39,075 nucleotides of DNA from Acetobacteraceae bacterium (GTDB lineage Bacteria; Pseudomonadota; Alphaproteobacteria; Acetobacterales; Acetobacteraceae). The notes below the pieces were generated by a model. It worked only from the letters and a program-made list of their open reading frames with translations, did not search any database and had not been told where the DNA came from. The stretch's first letter is position 1. Each line of letters starts with the position of its first letter. The DNA lies in contig PLSD01000082.1 in NCBI GenBank assembly GCA_003164135.1, positions 1-39,075 of the forward strand. The letters are read 5' to 3'. Shown here one piece after another: positions 19,316 to 33,465 of this stretch. The translations under genes and the position numbers were made by a program.

Positions 19316-19510
19316 GACTTAACCTTCTGTTTTTTGAAACCGCTGCTTTTCAGTTTGGCCAAGAGGCCCGATTATCCGCCCCGGCCCCACCCCCAAAAAA
19401 AGCGCCACACGCAGGCTGGACCAAGGCCGCGCGTAGCGCGATGATGGGGGGTGGGTAGCGCTTATTTATTCCGACTAGTAAATGGTGGTTACCTATGCCT
19501 ATATTTTGGA

Positions 19511-20347
19511 ATGAACAGATGTATGAAGTCATCGCTAGCAATAACCACTCTGGTTGGCTGGTTGATAGGTTTTATTGATGGCTCCTGTCATCGTGCTATG
19601 GCCCAAAATGTCGGTCCTAAAGACCCTTTTTCGGAAGGATTGAACGACATAATTTCCCACAACTATCTAAAGGCCATAGACGACTTTACGGTTGCGGCGA
19701 ATAACGGGAATTCAGATGCATCGTTCAACCTTGGTCTTATTTATTTTTATGGTGAAGGGACTCCTGTGTCCTATAAAAATAGTGCGTATTGGATGATCAA
19801 GTCTGCCGATGAAGGAAACGTAAGAGCCGAATTCAATTTGATTTGGTCGTATCAGGATGGCAACGGCGTTCCGAAGGATTATGACCAAGCTGCTTTTTGG
19901 CAGCAGAAGGTTACTGACCAGGGGTATGACGACGAGTACAATTTAAGTGAAATGTTTTCGAATGGAAGTGACCGGCCGAACAATCATATTTCGGCTATAA
20001 TGTGGACGCGGAACGCAGCTGAGCACGGGGATGCTATTTCCGAAGAGGCTCTCGCTTTAAATTATGGAGCTCAAGGAAGTTTTCCTAACGATGTTGTTGA
20101 AGCATTTCATTGGCATAAGAAGGCGGCTCTACAGGGAATAGAAGATGCTCAAGTCAATCTTGCGTCTGCGTATTGGAATGCGCAAGGAACACCTGAGAGC
20201 CTTGTCTTAGCCTATGAATGGGAAGATATTGCGGCATCGCAGGGTGACGATACTGCGGCATATAGTTGCGCTGAAATAGCGAAAAAATTAACGCCGCAAC
20301 AATTGATTCAAGCCAAGACTTTGGCTGATAATTTTAAACCACAATAG
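19511..20347 (+). CDS. Exported Sel1-like repeat protein
   Basis: This protein of about 278 residues has an N-terminal hydrophobic signal (SLAITTLVGWLIGFIDG, then AMAQ as a likely cleavage site) and five or so Sel1-type TPR repeats. Visible repeat units include ASFNLGLIYFYGEGTPVSYK, the AEFNLIWSYQDGNGVPKDYD unit and AQVNLASAYWNAQGTPESL, each with the A.xxLGxxYxxGxGxxxD pattern and about 36 residues apart. Such repeats bind other proteins and often occur in exported or host-interaction factors. A GTG at 19451 is a longer possible start, but the signal peptide fits the ATG at 19511 or 19523. The gene is clearly AT-rich, with codon use unlike its neighbours, so it was probably acquired. No partner is adjacent. 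Confidence 0.8.
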   Translation: MNRCMKSSLAITTLVGWLIGFIDGSCHRAMAQNVGPKDPFSEGLNDIISHNYLKAIDDFTVAANNGNSDASFNLGLIYFYGEGTPVSYKNSAYWMIKSADEGNVRAEFNLIWSYQDGNGVPKDYDQAAFWQQKVTDQGYDDEYNLSEMFSNGSDRPNNHISAIMWTRNAAEHGDAISEEALALNYGAQGSFPNDVVEAFHWHKKAALQGIEDAQVNLASAYWNAQGTPESLVLAYEWEDIAASQGDDTAAYSCAEIAKKLTPQQLIQAKTLADNFKPQ

Positions 20348-20409: not shown

Positions 20410-20979
20410 TTAATGGGCAAGGTGCCTAACCTCCACCTCGGTCGCCACCGCCTGCAACCGCAAATCCCGCTCCCCCACCGGCACCTCCGCAACCTCCTGC
20501 GCCGCAAACGCACACCCCAACCGGAACGCCCCCGGCAGCGCCGCCAGCGTACGGTCATAATACCCGCCGCCATACCCCAACCGGTTGCCTTTCGCATCAA
20601 ACGCCAGCAGCGGCATCAGCACGAAATCCGGGCGTAAAATCTCGCCGGTCGGGTGCTCCGTGCCAAACCTGCCGGGAACCATTTCAGCCCCCGGCTCCCA
20701 TTTCCTGAACACCAGCTTTTGCCCGCGTGGCGGCGTCTCCGGTAGGCAGATCACAAATCCCCTTTCCGCCAGCGCATACAACAACGGCCGGATATCTATC
20801 TCATCGCCCATCGGCCAGTACCCGGCCATCACCGCGCCGGGCGGCGGCGGGAAACCTTCCAGCACATGCCGGGCAAGTTCCGTCCCCAGCGCCGGATCGT
20901 ACTCCGCGCGGATGCGCAGGGCCCGCTCCCGTAGCTGGGCTTTCGCCTCGGCTAACGCAGCGGCGCCATCCTCCGTCAC
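20410..20979 (-). CDS. 5-formyltetrahydrofolate cyclo-ligase
   Basis: This enzyme uses ATP to convert 5-formyl-THF to 5,10-methenyl-THF, keeping the folate pool usable. The 189 residues are standard. YWPMGDEIDIRPLL (the substrate loop) is followed by DFVLMPLLAFDAKGNRLGYGGGYYDR, the hallmark C-terminal motif in which GYGGGYYDR binds phosphate and Mg. The start is a GTG (20977-20979) that overlaps the stop of the MotB-like gene (GTGA), so it is translated by coupling as the last gene of the suhB operon. Residues about 43-46 are four consecutive prolines (GFPPPPGAV), a ribosome-stalling motif normally relieved by EF-P, whose gene lies 4 kb away. Confidence 0.93.
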   Translation of the reverse strand: MTEDGAAALAEAKAQLRERALRIRAEYDPALGTELARHVLEGFPPPPGAVMAGYWPMGDEIDIRPLLYALAERGFVICLPETPPRGQKLVFRKWEPGAEMVPGRFGTEHPTGEILRPDFVLMPLLAFDAKGNRLGYGGGYYDRTLAALPGAFRLGCAFAAQEVAEVPVGERDLRLQAVATEVEVRHLAH

Positions 20980-22136
20980 GGCGTCGTCAGCCGGAATTCA
21001 ATCCGGCGGTTCTGCGCGTAATCAGCCTCCGTATCGCCTGGCGCCAGCGGATTGTTCGACCCCATGCCGGACGTCACCAGCCGGCCCTCCGGCACGCCGT
21101 CGGCAATCAGCAAATCCAGCACCGATAGCGCCCGCGCCGAAGACAAATCAAAGTTTGACTTGAACGGCCCGCCCTTGATCGGCTGCGCATCGGCATAGCC
21201 ATCCACCGAAAGCACCCAGTTCACATTCGGCGGAATTTTCGCGGAAATTTCCTTCACCGCGTCAGCCACTTGCGCAATTTCCACCGCACCCGCCGGCGTA
21301 ATCGTCGCGTCATCCACCGGGAACAGCACGTCGCTCTCAAACACAAAGCGGTCACCGACAACTTTTATGTTCTTCTCGCCCTTCAGGCTCTCGCTCAGCG
21401 CGCGGAAGAAAACGCTCTGGTATTGCTGCAACTCTTCCACCTTGCGCGCCAGCGCCTCATTCAGCTGCTTGCCCAAATCGGCGATCTGCACATTCTCTTT
21501 CACATCCGCCGCCTGCGCCGCATCCAGTGCCTGTGCCAGCGCCGCCAGTTGCGTGCGCATCGCCGCGATCTGCTGGTTCAGCAACGCCACCTGCGCCAGC
21601 GCATCGTTGGAAATTTTCGTCTGCGCCGCAAGCTTGCCCTGCGTATCGGTCAACTGTTCCTGCAACCCCGGCCCCGCATTCGCGTCAGCCTGCGCCTGCG
21701 CATCCATCTGCGCCTGCAACGCGGAAATCCGCCCGGCCGAAGCCGCCGCCTGCGCTTGCGCGTCCGAGAGCTGCGCCTGCAAACCCTGGCCCTGGCTCTG
21801 CAAACTCGTAATCGTCGCCGCATCTGCGCTCAACTGCTGCGTCAGCCCCGCATTGGCCGCCTGCGCGCTCGCCAACTGCGCATTCAGCGCGGAAAGCTCC
21901 TGCGCCAGTGTGGTATCTTTCGAGGTCTCCATCGAAAGACTTTGCGTCAGCTGTGCAATCTGGTCGCGCAACCGCGAAATCGTGTTGTCGCTGCCGCTAA
22001 GTGCCGAGGATAAAAACGCCTCCGCCAGCACGAACACCAGCAGCACGAAAATGGTGACCATAAGCAGCGTGGAAAGCGCGTCCACATACCCCGGCCACGC
22101 ATCCAGCCCGTTACTGCCGCCGCGCTTCCGGCTCAT
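20976..22136 (-). CDS. MotB/OmpA-like peptidoglycan-binding protein with coiled coil
   Basis: This 386-residue protein has one N-terminal helix (about 20-42) that contains Asp19 in WPGYVDALSTLLMV. The position corresponds to the proton-carrying Asp of MotB. A long Ala/Gln-rich coiled coil follows (about 48-230). The OmpA-like domain that grips peptidoglycan (about 255-386) shows FESDVLFPVDDATITPAG, SVDGYADAQP, LSSARALSVLDLL and NRRIEFRL. It is paired with a MotA-like gene by ATGA overlap, so together they should form an ion-driven stator-like complex in the inner membrane. No flagellar genes are nearby. Similar pairs are widespread in alphaproteobacteria with little known about their task. 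The coiled coil is unusually long for MotB. Confidence 0.85.
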   Translation of the reverse strand: MSRKRGGSNGLDAWPGYVDALSTLLMVTIFVLLVFVLAEAFLSSALSGSDNTISRLRDQIAQLTQSLSMETSKDTTLAQELSALNAQLASAQAANAGLTQQLSADAATITSLQSQGQGLQAQLSDAQAQAAASAGRISALQAQMDAQAQADANAGPGLQEQLTDTQGKLAAQTKISNDALAQVALLNQQIAAMRTQLAALAQALDAAQAADVKENVQIADLGKQLNEALARKVEELQQYQSVFFRALSESLKGEKNIKVVGDRFVFESDVLFPVDDATITPAGAVEIAQVADAVKEISAKIPPNVNWVLSVDGYADAQPIKGGPFKSNFDLSSARALSVLDLLIADGVPEGRLVTSGMGSNNPLAPGDTEADYAQNRRIEFRLTTP

Positions 22137-23275
22137 GCCCGTGCGTCATCCGCAAGGGCGGCGATGGTGCGGGTGAGAATCTTCAAATCGCTGCGCAGCT
22201 CGTTGGTGGTTTGCATCCGGCCTTGTTCGGTCTCGGTCAGCATCCGGGTCAGCAGCAGTTCGATGTTGCGCAGGTGCGAGCGCGTCGCATCATCGCCCAC
22301 CGGCTGTCGTGCGCTCCCCAGCCGGTCCAGCGCCGGGCCAAGTGCGGCGTGGGCATCCGCCAGCTTGGCCATCAACTGCTGGTTCAGCCGCAGCGTGTCG
22401 GCCAGATTGCCCATGCGCTCGCTCAACGCCAGTAGTGCTACGTTGCCCTGCGCGCGGCTGTCCTCGCCACGGCTCAGCACGCGCTGCAACGAGTCCATAT
22501 TCTCCGCGGTCTGTTCCAGCAGCGCCTGCACGTACACGGGCACGCTGGCCTCGCCATCGCCGCCAATTGCCCCCGTGGAAAGCCGCGTCAGCCCCGCCAG
22601 CCATTCTTCCACTTCGTTGAAAAACCGGTTCTGCGCCTGGCCGGCGGTGAGGTCCAAAAACCCCAGAATCAGCGCGCCGGAGAGGCCGAACATCGAGGAG
22701 GAAAACGCCGTGCCCATGCCGGCCAGCGGCCCCGCCAGCCCGCCTTTAAGCTGCGCGAACATCGCATTCACATCGCCGCCCGAAAGGTTCATGCCGTTGA
22801 TAACGGCGGCGACGGACGACACCGTATGCAGCAGCCCCCAGAAGGTGCCGAGCAGGCCGAGGAAAATCATCACCCCGGTCACATAGCGCGACAGCTCCCG
22901 GCTCTCATCCAACCGGCTGGAAATGCCGTCCAGAATGGTGCGCATCGCCGGGCCAGAGAGCGTGATCCGCCGCTCGCCATCGGCGCGGCCCTGCAGCATG
23001 CGCGCCATCGGCGCCAGCAGCACCGGCGGGGTGGCCTGCGCCAGCGTGTGCCGGGCGCGGCGGAAATGCTCCACCCACACCACCTCGGGGTTCAGCCGTT
23101 GCACTTGCCGCAAGTTCCAGAACACGCCAAATATCTCGACCGCGACAATGACCGAGTTGATAACCGGATTGGCCATGTAGAACTTCGCCAGCGCCGGCGA
23201 GATCACCGCCGCCACCCCGTACACCACCACGCAGAACACGATCATGCGGATGAGATAACTGGTCGGGCGGGTCAT
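22133..23275 (-). CDS. MotA/TolQ/ExbB-like proton channel protein
   Basis: This 380-residue inner-membrane protein has two N-terminal helices (about 8-30 and 36-55), a cytoplasmic stretch, then two longer helices around 135-160 and 180-210. The second pair contains FLGLLGTFWGLLHTVSSVAAVI and GPLAGMGTAFSSSMFGLSGALILGF. The latter, with its small residues and Thr/Ser, is the conserved MotA/TolQ pore helix pattern. The C-terminal 170 residues are helical (LLEQTAENMDSLQRVLSRGED and later leucine-rich heptads). It overlaps both neighbours by 4 bases (OmpA-like gene upstream, MotB-like downstream), so the three are made together. It is shorter than Zorya ZorA and lacks ZorC/D/E partners. Confidence 0.85.
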   Translation of the reverse strand: MTRPTSYLIRMIVFCVVVYGVAAVISPALAKFYMANPVINSVIVAVEIFGVFWNLRQVQRLNPEVVWVEHFRRARHTLAQATPPVLLAPMARMLQGRADGERRITLSGPAMRTILDGISSRLDESRELSRYVTGVMIFLGLLGTFWGLLHTVSSVAAVINGMNLSGGDVNAMFAQLKGGLAGPLAGMGTAFSSSMFGLSGALILGFLDLTAGQAQNRFFNEVEEWLAGLTRLSTGAIGGDGEASVPVYVQALLEQTAENMDSLQRVLSRGEDSRAQGNVALLALSERMGNLADTLRLNQQLMAKLADAHAALGPALDRLGSARQPVGDDATRSHLRNIELLLTRMLTETEQGRMQTTNELRSDLKILTRTIAALADDARA

Positions 23276-29369: not shown

Positions 29370-30326
29370 ATGTCTCAAGCTTGGGAGCGGTTGGAAGACC
29401 GCATGGCGGCACTGCGGCGGCGCAATTTGCTGAGCGCCGGGGTGCGGGCGTTTTTTGGGGCGCGGGGGTTTTGTGAGGTGGAGACGCCTTATGTGGTGGT
29501 GGCGCCGGGGGAAGAAGTGCATTTGCGCGCGGTGCCGGCGGGACGGGGGTATTTGAATACCAGCCCGGAGTTTGCCATGAAAAAGCTGCTGGCCGGGGGC
29601 TCGGGGCCGATTTTTCAGCTGGCGCGGGTGTGGCGCGATGAGCCGTGGAGCGACACGCATGCGCCGGAGTTTACCATGCTGGAGTGGTACTCGCTGCGCG
29701 CGGATATGGGCGTGTTGATGGATGAAACCGAGGCGCTGTTGCGGGCGGTGCTGCCGCCGGTGGTGGAGTGCCGGGGGGTGCGGACCAGTTTGGAGACCTT
29801 TGAGCGGATTACGGTGGCGGAGGCGTTTGCGCGCTACGTGGGGGCGGACGTGCTGGGGACCGAGGGCGATGCGGTAGCGTTAGCGGCACAGGCAGGGGTG
29901 GTGTTGCGTGAAGGTGAGGACTGGGAGGATTTGTTTTTCCGGTTGTTGCTGGAGCGGGTGGAGCCGCATTTGGGGCGGGAGTGCCCGACGTTTTTAACGC
30001 ATTTTCCCGCGGCGCAGGCGGCGTTGGCGCGGCGGGACCCGGCGGATACGCGGGTGGCGGAACGGTTTGAGCTGTTTGTGTGCGGGATTGAGCTGGCCAA
30101 TGCGTTCGTCGAGTTGACCGATGCGGATGAGCAGCGGGCGCGATTTGTGGCGGACCGGGCGCGGCGGCATGCGATGTATGGGCCGGATTGGGAAATGGAT
30201 GAGGCGTTTTTGAACGCCGTGGCGAAGTTGCCGCCGTGCGCGGGGATTGCGCTGGGATTTGACCGGCTGGCGATGCTGGCGACGGGGGCGCTGCGGATTT
30301 GTGACGTTTTGTGGTTGCCGTCGTGA
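29370..30326 (+). CDS. epmA: EF-P--lysine lysyltransferase EpmA (GenX/PoxA)
   Basis: EpmA is a truncated class II lysyl-tRNA synthetase paralogue that activates beta-lysine with ATP and transfers it to the EF-P loop lysine. The 318 residues lack the N-terminal anticodon-binding domain, as in all EpmA. Motif 2 is seen as IFQLARVWRDEPW...APEFTMLEWY (about 81-107), motif 3 as GIALGFDRLAMLATGA (about 295-310), and NTSPEFAMKKLL (63-74) precedes motif 2. GGAG 5 bases before the ATG at 29370 sets the start, although the frame is open to 29250. It is divergent from epmB with only 26 bases between starts. Confidence 0.94.
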   Translation: MSQAWERLEDRMAALRRRNLLSAGVRAFFGARGFCEVETPYVVVAPGEEVHLRAVPAGRGYLNTSPEFAMKKLLAGGSGPIFQLARVWRDEPWSDTHAPEFTMLEWYSLRADMGVLMDETEALLRAVLPPVVECRGVRTSLETFERITVAEAFARYVGADVLGTEGDAVALAAQAGVVLREGEDWEDLFFRLLLERVEPHLGRECPTFLTHFPAAQAALARRDPADTRVAERFELFVCGIELANAFVELTDADEQRARFVADRARRHAMYGPDWEMDEAFLNAVAKLPPCAGIALGFDRLAMLATGALRICDVLWLPS

Positions 30327-30381
30327 AAATGGGTGGGCTGTGCTTATGTTAGGGTGAGTTTTTGCGGTGAGTGAGGTGGAT

Positions 30382-30759: not shown

Positions 30760-30764
30760 GGGGG

Positions 30765-30780
30765 TGTTTCACGTGAAGCT
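30765..30780. promoter_or_regulatory. parS-like ParB-binding site
   Basis: TGTTTCACGTGAAGCT matches the widely conserved chromosomal parS consensus TGTTTCACGTGAAACA at 14 of 16 positions, with an intact TTTCACGTGAA core and a perfect TTCACGTGAA palindrome. It lies between genes, 6 bases after the lipoprotein stop. Functional parS sites bind ParB for chromosome segregation and usually lie near oriC; no parAB is in the window. A core this long is unlikely by chance in 39 kb, but binding is not shown. Confidence 0.6.
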
Positions 30781-30984
30781 ATTGTGAGGTTTTTGCTATA
30801 ACGCGTTGTTAGTATGGCTTAATTTTTTGCTTGCACCCCAATTTGTGCGGGTTTGTGTCGGAAAAGGAATGAGTTGGAGGTAAAGCTGGCGGAATGCGCT
30901 TTGCCAATCCGCCCTTGCGGCTATTAGTTGTAATGACTACCCTATCGGGGTTTGTATCATTTTTACGCCTAGGCAAGAGAGCTA

Positions 30985-33129
30985 ATGGACCTTTCAACAT
31001 TTTGCCATCTTGTCGATGAAACTAGTGGGGTCATCGACCAATGGCCAAACGAGCTTTTCGGGAATTATCGATATTTAGGTCTACCCGAGACAGGTAATTT
31101 TACGTCGACGACTATAAGCGATGAGCTGGATAGTCGAATCCGAAATGCCTTTGTTCCCGGAGATAAGAGAATTGCCGAGCAATGCAGACAGTTGCTAGGC
31201 GAACTTATCCATGAGCACATTTTGGAAAATCATCCTTTAAACCCGTATTGTGAAATTCTAGCGAAGATAAAAGACGCTACTCAGTTTCAGCAGACAGTCG
31301 GAAATGATACCTGCCAGGAATGGCGTCAAGCAGTCGAATACGGGCATCTAAGTGTCAAACAAATGAGTCTGAACACTATAGAGCGTTTGGATCACATTTA
31401 CCCTGAATATTATGCAGTAGGCCATGCGGCAGCGCGTCTAAAGCGTTATGGCTATCCGATTGAACGTGCAGGGGATAAAATTTCCCTAAACGAGGCGATG
31501 CAAATACGATTAGTAGCTAAGATAGAAACACTACTCGCAGAACTTGGTGGACTTTTTGTCGCACGACAAATTTTCAACCGCATGAGTGTCGGATATGACT
31601 TACAGCAAGAGCGATACCACCTTGTCGCTCCCAAACCTAACGCACAAATCGTCCAGCAACCATTGATTCCCTTTGGATACCTATTTCAATTAGCAGTCAA
31701 GCATTACAATAATGGAAAGGCAAGCGGCACTGCCGATCACAACAATTTTGGAAAAGCAGTGTCACTGATCCTAGATTATTCCACGCTTCTTGATGTGCAA
31801 GATTTTAGCCATTTCCCGCACTTTCCGTTCGTACCAGAAAAAATGCTTCAAGCACTGCAAAGAATGGCATTAGCAGACACGTTGTATAAAATTCCCCAAG
31901 TTCGCGGAAGTGATATCACAAAGATTCTTCGTGGCCTACTTAATATTGAGACCGTTGATGAACCTTTTGAAAAAGGTTGGACGATAAAACAAGCTATTGA
32001 AGTGATAGATGTTATCTTAAATCAATCAAAAGAAAAGCGCGGTCCGATCCGTGTTCGCGCGCGCGAAGTTAGAAAATTATGCCCGTCAATCGACGGGCAT
32101 ATTGTAGATATAATCTTGAGCGACGTTTTGTCGCATCCACACGCGGGCGCCAACCAAAATTTTTCTAGACCGACTGATGCGCCAACTACGCCAATGGGCA
32201 ACAGCAACACTTCTGGTGCTGATTTTTCCCAGTTTCCCTTGCTGAAATATAGCGATCAAAGCTACATCCTTATGGATCGGTCAGCTTGCTCAGGGGCATT
32301 CCTAGAAGCAATTTTCTCACAGATGCGGAAAAAAGATGATCACTTTGATCGCGACCTAGGCAAACCAATAGAACGTCTCGTCAAAGGCATTTTGCTTCAA
32401 CATAATATTCCCTCACGTAGTGGCAATTACAAAATCGGGTCAGAAGAGGGAGAATGCGATATCGTCATCGAAATGGATGAGATCGTAATTCTGATTGAAG
32501 TGAAAAAGAAACCTTTAACTCGTCGCGCTCGCGCAGGATCTGACTTGTCTTTGGTTTTAGACCTCGCACAAAGCCTACTAGAAGCTCAGGAACAAGCCGG
32601 AAATCACGAGATGCGACTTCTACGGGAAGGCTATTTAGATTTAAACGAAAATGGAGAGACTTATCGCGTTCAGCTCAACGGACGAAGCATTGAACGCATA
32701 GCACTATCTTTCACGGATTTCGGCAGCTTCCACGATCGTTTGTTTCTTGAGAAGTTTTTGAACGCGATCATCCGACTAAAATTTGGTGTCGCAGACTCGC
32801 GATATGAAAGACAATTCACAGCGATTAATCAGGCTATTACTGCTCTTCAAGAGCAGAGCCGCTTCTTGTATCCTGCGGATGGACCGCGAAAACGCCCATA
32901 TTTCAATTGCTGGTTCTTCAGCTTGCCTCAACTACTGATCCTTCTCGATGGAGTTGACAGCCCAGAATCTTTTCGCGATGCGCTTTGGGCAACGAGAAAC
33001 TTAGGCAATGGAAGCGGCGATCTTTGCTTTGATATACATCACGCTGAGCACATAAGAAAGACACAACCTGCTATGTGGGAAATGCTGTTAACATTGAAAG
33101 ACCGCGAGGTGACATTCCTAACTGGATAG
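30985..33129 (+). CDS. Orphan 714-residue protein with a PD-(D/E)XK nuclease-like domain
   Basis: I do not recognise the full protein. Residues 1-440 are mostly helical with no known motif. Residues about 455-540 look like a PD-(D/E)XK nuclease core: Glu463 in a helix (PIERLVKGIL), Asp492 in GECDIVIEMDEI, then Glu505 and Lys507 in VILIEVKKKP, and a helix with Gln529. This is the spacing of the catalytic D..ExK site. The C-terminal 170 residues are again helical and unknown. No helicase or ATPase motif and no signal peptide is present. The gene is AT-rich, unlike its neighbours, and is followed by a REP-like cluster, so horizontal gain is likely. It could be a single-gene anti-phage or mobile-element nuclease, but that is inference only. 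Confidence 0.75.
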   Translation: MDLSTFCHLVDETSGVIDQWPNELFGNYRYLGLPETGNFTSTTISDELDSRIRNAFVPGDKRIAEQCRQLLGELIHEHILENHPLNPYCEILAKIKDATQFQQTVGNDTCQEWRQAVEYGHLSVKQMSLNTIERLDHIYPEYYAVGHAAARLKRYGYPIERAGDKISLNEAMQIRLVAKIETLLAELGGLFVARQIFNRMSVGYDLQQERYHLVAPKPNAQIVQQPLIPFGYLFQLAVKHYNNGKASGTADHNNFGKAVSLILDYSTLLDVQDFSHFPHFPFVPEKMLQALQRMALADTLYKIPQVRGSDITKILRGLLNIETVDEPFEKGWTIKQAIEVIDVILNQSKEKRGPIRVRAREVRKLCPSIDGHIVDIILSDVLSHPHAGANQNFSRPTDAPTTPMGNSNTSGADFSQFPLLKYSDQSYILMDRSACSGAFLEAIFSQMRKKDDHFDRDLGKPIERLVKGILLQHNIPSRSGNYKIGSEEGECDIVIEMDEIVILIEVKKKPLTRRARAGSDLSLVLDLAQSLLEAQEQAGNHEMRLLREGYLDLNENGETYRVQLNGRSIERIALSFTDFGSFHDRLFLEKFLNAIIRLKFGVADSRYERQFTAINQAITALQEQSRFLYPADGPRKRPYFNCWFFSLPQLLILLDGVDSPESFRDALWATRNLGNGSGDLCFDIHHAEHIRKTQPAMWEMLLTLKDREVTFLTG

Positions 33130-33156
33130 CATAGCTGAAAAACGGAAGCCTTGGAT

Positions 33157-33465
33157 ACGTCTACCGGCGTTCGCCGGCATGACGGGTGGGGAAGGTGGGG
33201 GTTGGGCGGCGGCTGTTTTGGGATTTGTTGAGGGTTGGTTCTGGATTGCCGACCCCGGCCTTCGCCGGGGTCGCAATGAGCTTGGGGGCGGGTTTTGGGT
33301 TAGATTGATGGGGCGGGAAGATGGATCGCCACGGCCGCGTCGTGCGAATGCACGCATTCGCGTGACGCGGCCTCGCGATGACGTTGGGGGGCAGGCTGGT
33401 TCGGGAAGTGTTGAGGCTGGTTAAGGAAGACGTGGATGCCGGCGTGCGCCGGCATGACGATGGGG
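33157..33465. repeat. Cluster of four REP-like palindromes
   Basis: Between the orphan nuclease-like gene and the Lrp gene, no ORF is credible, but four stem-loops occur: ACCGGCGTTCGCCGGCATGA (33163-33182, the inverse of the copy at 19286); ATTGC.GACCCCGGC with its complement (33245-33277); a 25-base imperfect inverted repeat at 33325-33380 with ATCGC, GGCCGCGTC and GCGAATG blocks; and GATGCCGGCGTGCGCCGGCA (about 33435-33454, followed by TGACG). TGCCGGCG..CGCCGGCA is the common core. Confidence 0.75.

Follow-up and report, generated by a model that had tools for sequence, protein, structure and literature searches.

Contig PLSD01000082.1 of an Acetobacteraceae bacterium (GenBank assembly GCA_003164135.1), 39,075 nucleotides long and referred to here as the window, encodes a putative single-gene nuclease at 30985-33129 on the plus strand. 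The reading frame is uninterrupted over 714 codons from an ATG, and this start is consistent with seven plasmid homologues, whose annotated starts align with M1. The G+C content of the gene is 0.445 (0.561, 0.364 and 0.410 at the three codon positions) against 0.632 in the remainder of the window, bearing out an earlier note on this DNA that had found its base composition unlike that of its neighbours. The same note had seen in E463, D492, E505 and K507 the order and spacing of a PD-(D/E)XK active site, and had offered a single-protein defence or mobile-element nuclease as one reading and a repair or degradation enzyme as another. The gene and the parts of its product are as follows.

30985-33129, plus strand: putative single-gene nuclease, 714 amino acids (list of open reading frames (ORFs) and homologues)
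30985-31899, plus strand: residues 1-305, N-terminal part, mostly helical, with a proposed sensory or regulatory role (predicted model)
31906-32277, plus strand: residues 308-431, winged-helix-like domain containing an insert of low confidence at 387-413 (predicted structures)
32344-32724, plus strand: residues 454-580, predicted PD-(D/E)XK nuclease core (models, profile matches, conservation)
32371-32373, plus strand: codon of E463, the first-helix Glu, invariant in 15/15 sequences
32458-32460, plus strand: codon of D492, the proposed metal-binding Asp, invariant in 15/15 sequences
32497-32505, plus strand: codons of E505-V506-K507, the E-x-K motif, with E505 and K507 invariant in 15/15 sequences
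32797-33054, plus strand: residues 605-690, C-terminal extension (alignment, predicted structures)

Catalytic residues and predicted domains

The window protein was aligned with 14 homologues that are 19-40% identical to it, a range that identifies a protein family and not a chance ORF. All four proposed catalytic residues are among the 17 invariant columns of this 15-sequence alignment, with Glu and Asp separated by 28 residues, Asp and the second Glu by 12, and x-Lys following. Because the four had been picked without any alignment, their invariance is an independent test, and the claimed order and spacing stand; the chance that four random positions are all invariant is about 2e-7 on the assumption of independent positions, which does not strictly hold for conserved motifs. 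The homologues thus carry the conserved D...(D/E)xK and the first-helix Glu of the PD-(D/E)XK superfamily. Structure prediction places these residues in a core of helix 454-472, strands 478-484, 487-496 and 500-506/507, helix 520-548 and strand 550-555, an alpha-beta-beta-beta-alpha-beta order with the motif predicted to lie on adjacent strands. Many of the solved folds nearest to the model belong to the PD-(D/E)XK superfamily, and YraN/UPF0102 profiles match the same region. The fold check proposed in the earlier note, by structure prediction and profile comparison, therefore points to a PD-(D/E)XK core at about residues 454-580.

The models suggest two further parts ahead of this core: an N-terminal one that is helical, and a winged-helix-like domain. 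Five residues of the N-terminal part (G156, G188, P229, D298 and Q305) are invariant in the alignment, and its weakest stretches in the model, residues 188-252 and 270-304, have a predicted local distance difference test (pLDDT) value below 50. In the C-terminal extension an FxCWFxSxPQLLxLLD-like stretch is conserved within the close subfamily. The flanks of the core had been described as belonging to no recognisable family. No Pfam or PADLOC family matches them and the N-terminal half is uncharacterised, but the description needs correcting for one part: residues 308-430 or so resemble a winged helix.

Relation to known nucleases

No Pfam family and none of the 5027 PADLOC models matches the protein at E <= 10. 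The best NCBIfam match is to the antiphage family GapS1 (GAPS1, NF047931; hmmscan E 8e-7, residues 362-560), and the likeness covers a common region upstream of and including the D...(D/E)xK core. GAPS1 is a single-protein system. Profile-profile comparison (hhalign) with five GapS1-like sequences, two of which exceed the curated cut-off, gave 94.4% over 237 columns (329-576). With three sequences the value was 92.8% and the alignment started at column 174, whereas 20 column shuffles gave 0.4% or less and the reversed alignment 0.5%. The alignment reaches past the common core, since it spans 237 columns compared with 63 for a YraN-like profile, and it is consistent with a homologous nuclease half, although the common core supplies part of the signal. 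Membership of GapS1 was rejected on the curated cut-off (28.3 bits versus 320). The GapS1 model has 455 positions, compared with 714 residues here, the N-terminal ~300 residues are unaligned in the five-sequence comparison, and the window's genome is not among the GapS1 matches in a search of 299 genomes. Because only two of the 14 family members match the GapS1 model at E 0.01, the sequence comparison makes the protein at most a distant GapS1 relative, in its catalytic half only, and not a GapS1.

The core motif is also close to that of YraN/UPF0102. Gly-x3-Glu...Asp...Glu-x-Lys aligns with PDB 3fov (E 0.01) and with a YraN-like profile of 15 sequences (hhalign 96.8% over 63 columns); the YraN NCBIfam match has an E value of 0.008, and one YraN model matches 5 of the 14 family members. 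However, scores of 14 and 16.2 bits fall below the curated cut-offs of the two models (81 or 109) and so do not make the protein a member. The YraN models span about 120 positions, whereas here the core sits inside 714 amino acids, and YraN-like frames are common in the phylum's genomes, whereas this family is rare. PDB 2eo0, which we take to be an Hjc-type resolvase, matches weakly (E 1.5). The anti-phage protein Upx (cryo-electron microscopy entry 9wuf, 2026) is retrieved by Foldseek with an E value of 1.0e-3 and a probability of 0.98, but with a root-mean-square deviation of 12-13 Å, and no profile match to 9wuf was found. FokI and N.BspD6I, in which the DNA-binding part likewise precedes the cleavage part, gave the best VIA-align Z among the matches listed (up to 8.3, barely over the usual background of 7-8), but no sequence similarity to either was found. 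Searches by phmmer or profile gave no sequence match to the Shedu SduA, Cdn1/Can2/Card1 or McrC nucleases, and no CARF-type sensor or AAA partner was recognised. No mention was found in the literature for five family accessions or for the name of the GapS1 model.

Distribution, mobility and the window site

Among 38 genomes of the genus, and likewise among 299 sampled from the host's family (Acetobacteraceae), a single one has the gene, the window's own in both cases. Three of 385 sampled genomes of the class match a 14-sequence profile at E <= 1e-9, including the window's own and one partial match. In the phylum, 70 of 398 genomes matched, and four of these were counted as possible relatives: the window's own genome, G628 (a full-length copy, identical in sequence and position to locus L044), G512 (a partial match where a contig ends) and G568 (matching profile positions 348-515). 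The other 66, mostly short matches over the core, were dropped; a pattern search found a YraN-like frame in 15 of the 26 fetched loci with dropped matches (L013-L038). tblastn retrieved 15 plasmid records, each at below 60% identity and 12 of them predicted conjugative, and two further plasmid records were reached with other family members as queries. Two short peptide patterns located seven loci in a species-genome collection, from Pseudomonas (2), Afipia (2), Gluconobacter, Defluviimonas and an unclassified proteobacterium. None of 50,697 phage records matches (tblastn, E 0.1); one viral contig was matched by pattern scan and other viral pattern scans gave no match, such scans detecting close relatives only. 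A common phage gene was rejected on these counts. The copy on Shewanella plasmid pS18501 (L118:8001-11329) is split by an IS3-like element, and in Xanthomonas record NZ_CP018463.1 a family copy is covered in two pieces.

The following stretches bear on the mobility of the gene and on its site in the window.

L039:9789-12356 and L045:9790-12356, no strand assigned: near-identical one-gene stretch (pairwise DNA comparison)
30763-33458, no strand assigned: segment to which the examined stretches of relatives show no DNA similarity (DNA comparison)
30765-30780, plus strand: parS-like 16-mer with 2 mismatches, the sole match in the window
33164-33452, no strand assigned: cluster of short GC-rich repeats, resembling repetitive extragenic palindromes (REP-like; repeat search)

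Horizontal movement of the gene alone is supported in one pair of genomes, Pseudomonas graminis (L039) and Pseudomonas sp. RIT-PI-S (L045). These share 2568 bp at 99.65% identity, comprising the gene and little else; the reading frames differ at 5 nucleotides and the proteins are identical. The remaining common stretches over 100 bp are 75-84% identical. Both copies lie near the same aldehyde-dehydrogenase gene, and no 10-mers, direct or inverted, are common to the compared flanks at the gene ends. The near-identity of this one-gene stretch in two genomes suggests that the gene can be of use on its own; if so, a direct plating test would be simple. At all 15 homologue loci the gene is poorer in G+C than the DNA flanking it; the difference is narrow at some loci and strong at L098 (0.325 versus 0.632), and the window is one more case. 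In the tree, copies from Pseudomonas, Xanthomonas and Gluconobacter and one unclassified copy group together across classes (96/98 support); several long branches outside this clade are unsure. Integrase, resolvase or transposase genes lie near L002, L003, L004, L006, L007, L039, L040, L041 and L044.

At the window site, similarity on the left ends at 30760 and 30762 in the two furthest-reaching relatives and resumes on the right at 33459-33490 in the relatives covering that side, and both flanking blocks match host-genus genomes at ~73-89% DNA identity. Because the SerC and EpmA matches are on separate contigs in 14 of 14 relatives, and the DNA adjoining Lrp in G697 matches contig C90 of the window's own genome (G000:C90:162312 onward), the site is a synteny break, not shown as a simple insert. 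The DNA past Lrp in 13 of the 14 relatives (L066 ends there) has no lipoprotein-like ORF or EpmA match. Repeats left by an insertion at the gene ends were considered and rejected, as no 10-mers, direct or inverted, are common to the stretches compared at the flanks of the window gene. The gene lies between a parS-like site and a REP cluster, as had been noted; for the parS-like 16-mer 0.10 matches are expected by chance, and at least one occurred in 8 of 100 shuffles. To the right are genes for an Lrp-type regulator and then a phosphoglycerate dehydrogenase, and to the left a small ORF without a Pfam hit and a class II tRNA-synthetase-like (EpmA-like) gene. A Pfam scan of the window neighbours recognised no partner gene beside the nuclease ORF, in keeping with the earlier note; no integrase or transposase turned up among the 10 window proteins scanned, and the window has no tRNA gene. 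In two close relatives (L087:2078-4123 and L090:1558-3690) the EpmA-like gene and the lipoprotein-like gene are separated by a frame of ~680-710 amino acids whose translation reads as TadG-like; the window lacks this frame at 30326-30367.

Neighbourhoods of homologues and proposed role

We compared 139 proteins from 13 homologue loci with 138 proteins from 10 of 14 control regions fetched from the same records or genomes. L002, L008, L043, L099, L117 and L118 lay outside the PADLOC scan; among the controls, L103 and L101 were used in part only and L100, L109, L111 and L113 were unused. L041 and L043 (92.7% identical over 14.9 kb) were counted once, whereas L039 and L045, which share the gene, were counted as two. 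A known defence system lies within 9 kb at 5 of the 13 focal loci and in 1 of the 10 control regions (one-sided Fisher test by hand, 0.14), each call being our own judgement from the best 25 of 244 focal and the best 25 of 57 control families; matches to HmaB/HmaC, HamB and CBASS (cyclic-oligonucleotide-based anti-phage signalling system) models were assigned to loci from annotation or Pfam. These 244 and 57 PADLOC families were matched at E 1e-10 and many of the models are redundant; the focal list includes generic matches, such as sigma-54-type regulators to RtcR models. Among the control matches listed are type IV CRISPR and AbiE models, placed in L102 by annotation, the mad3 model in 5 proteins and the mad8 model in 2. 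The enrichment of defence genes near homologues, a check proposed in the earlier note, is thus in the expected direction; it is suggestive, not significant.

In L041 (Afipia) a ThiF-SMODS fusion and a Cap4-SAVED protein of CBASS type, presumably type II, are encoded next upstream. L044 (a Defluviimonas metagenome-assembled genome) has a SIR2-type Argonaute-associated protein and a short Argonaute next downstream, and L006 (Rhizobium jaguaris) a Dsr1-like SIR2 protein next upstream with LmuB nearby. L039 has genes for a PIN protein, HamA and an integrase, the last two on the right, and L005 (Bradyrhizobium) genes annotated DUF499/DUF1156, which were equated with the HmaB/HmaC matches. The defence count leaves out a helicase of GajB type in L003 and a gene annotated as AbiEii in L004. 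In the Xanthomonas plasmid locus L002, MPN/ThiF and UvrD-type genes lie upstream, and L040, L042 and L046, which belong to the 13 scanned loci, give no clear picture.

Taken together, these data support a real, horizontally moving family of single-gene PD-(D/E)XK nucleases that also have a winged-helix-like domain and an N-terminal half not yet characterised. Because its members occur on plasmids and islands and sometimes beside known anti-virus systems, we think it likely that the gene is a stand-alone defence nuclease, anti-phage or anti-element, carried as a one-gene cassette. The helical N-terminal half would detect infection, or some feature of DNA entering the cell, and hold the enzyme inactive at other times, the winged-helix-like domain would position it on DNA, and the core would cut DNA through E463, D492, E505 and K507 with a divalent metal, leading to the loss of the invader or of the infected cell. 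DNA as the substrate, N-terminal sensing and the protective effect are what we infer for such an enzyme. Three loci weigh against a defence role: L098, between NtrB/C/Y/X-type two-component regulator genes (read from translations), and L045, judged by six Pfam-scanned neighbours, have the look of core chromosome, and the Phaeobacter plasmid locus L117 has no defence gene in its annotation. Homologues confined to housekeeping contexts, an outcome that the earlier note had named as refuting, did not emerge, but two of the 13 scanned loci, L045 and L098, have neighbours of housekeeping appearance.

The nuclease could instead serve the mobile elements themselves, in replication, repair, competitor exclusion or mobility, and not protect the host from phage. 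The 15 plasmid records, 12 predicted conjugative, the integrase, resolvase or transposase genes near nine loci, and a core that resembles YraN and weakly PDB 2eo0 agree with such a role. It is nevertheless an unlikely one: the fetched loci show no consistent partner gene or position in a transfer or replication module, L098 and L045 have no recognised element gene among the neighbours scanned or read, none of the 10 scanned window proteins is an integrase or transposase, and dedicated anti-phage systems adjoin some loci. Still less probable is a host enzyme of repair or nucleic-acid degradation with a YraN/EndoMS/Hjc-like housekeeping role, even though the core motif is nearest in sequence to YraN/UPF0102. 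A repair enzyme was ruled out as the leading explanation because the distribution is patchy (no match in 37 of 38 genus and 298 of 299 family genomes, and 3 of 385 in the class) and the composition foreign; the class-mixing clade argues the same way. Presence in a single genus genome, on plasmids, near integrase or transposase genes and, at several loci, near defence systems favours the first of the two readings in the earlier note. That the gene is a decayed remnant or an assembly join is the least probable reading of all. It lies at a synteny break, each of the 14 relatives compared has the two flanks on separate contigs, the assembly has an estimated contamination of 5.43%, and interrupted copies exist in Shewanella and Xanthomonas; yet the window copy is open over its 714 codons with the four catalytic residues present, and both flanks match the same genus.

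A fuller version of the proposed defence role has, in our view, roughly an even chance of being right. It holds that this is an undescribed one-gene defence family of Alpha- and Gammaproteobacteria, often plasmid-borne, in which a new helical N-terminal sensor of ~300 residues controls a winged-helix and PD-(D/E)XK DNA cutter; that it can move as a bare ~2.5-kb cassette, sometimes beside CBASS, SIR2-Argonaute or Dsr1-like systems, to which it may be an additional layer; and that GapS1, and perhaps Upx, are distant cousins of the catalytic half. If this is true, an unnamed family with an apparently unstudied N-terminal domain joins the single-gene anti-phage and anti-plasmid nucleases, and annotators gain a model for proteins currently labelled 'hypothetical protein' or, once, 'YraN family protein'.

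Other frames were noted in passing. L012 has at 1486-2634 on the minus strand a 382-amino-acid frame whose nuclease motif is similar and which may represent a further small nuclease family; it lies beside a frame ending in a CPCGSGKKFKRCC motif, which we take to be SEC-C-like. The window contains two further stretches of low G+C content (about 0.45 each), one with an ORF at 324-1109 on the minus strand that has no Pfam or PADLOC hit, the other with an ORF for a Sel1-repeat protein at 19451-20347 on the plus strand. Two adjoining ORFs at 20976-23275 on the minus strand match the PADLOC ZorB (E 1.8e-19) and ZorA (E 1.6e-12) models and may encode ordinary MotA/MotB-type proteins.
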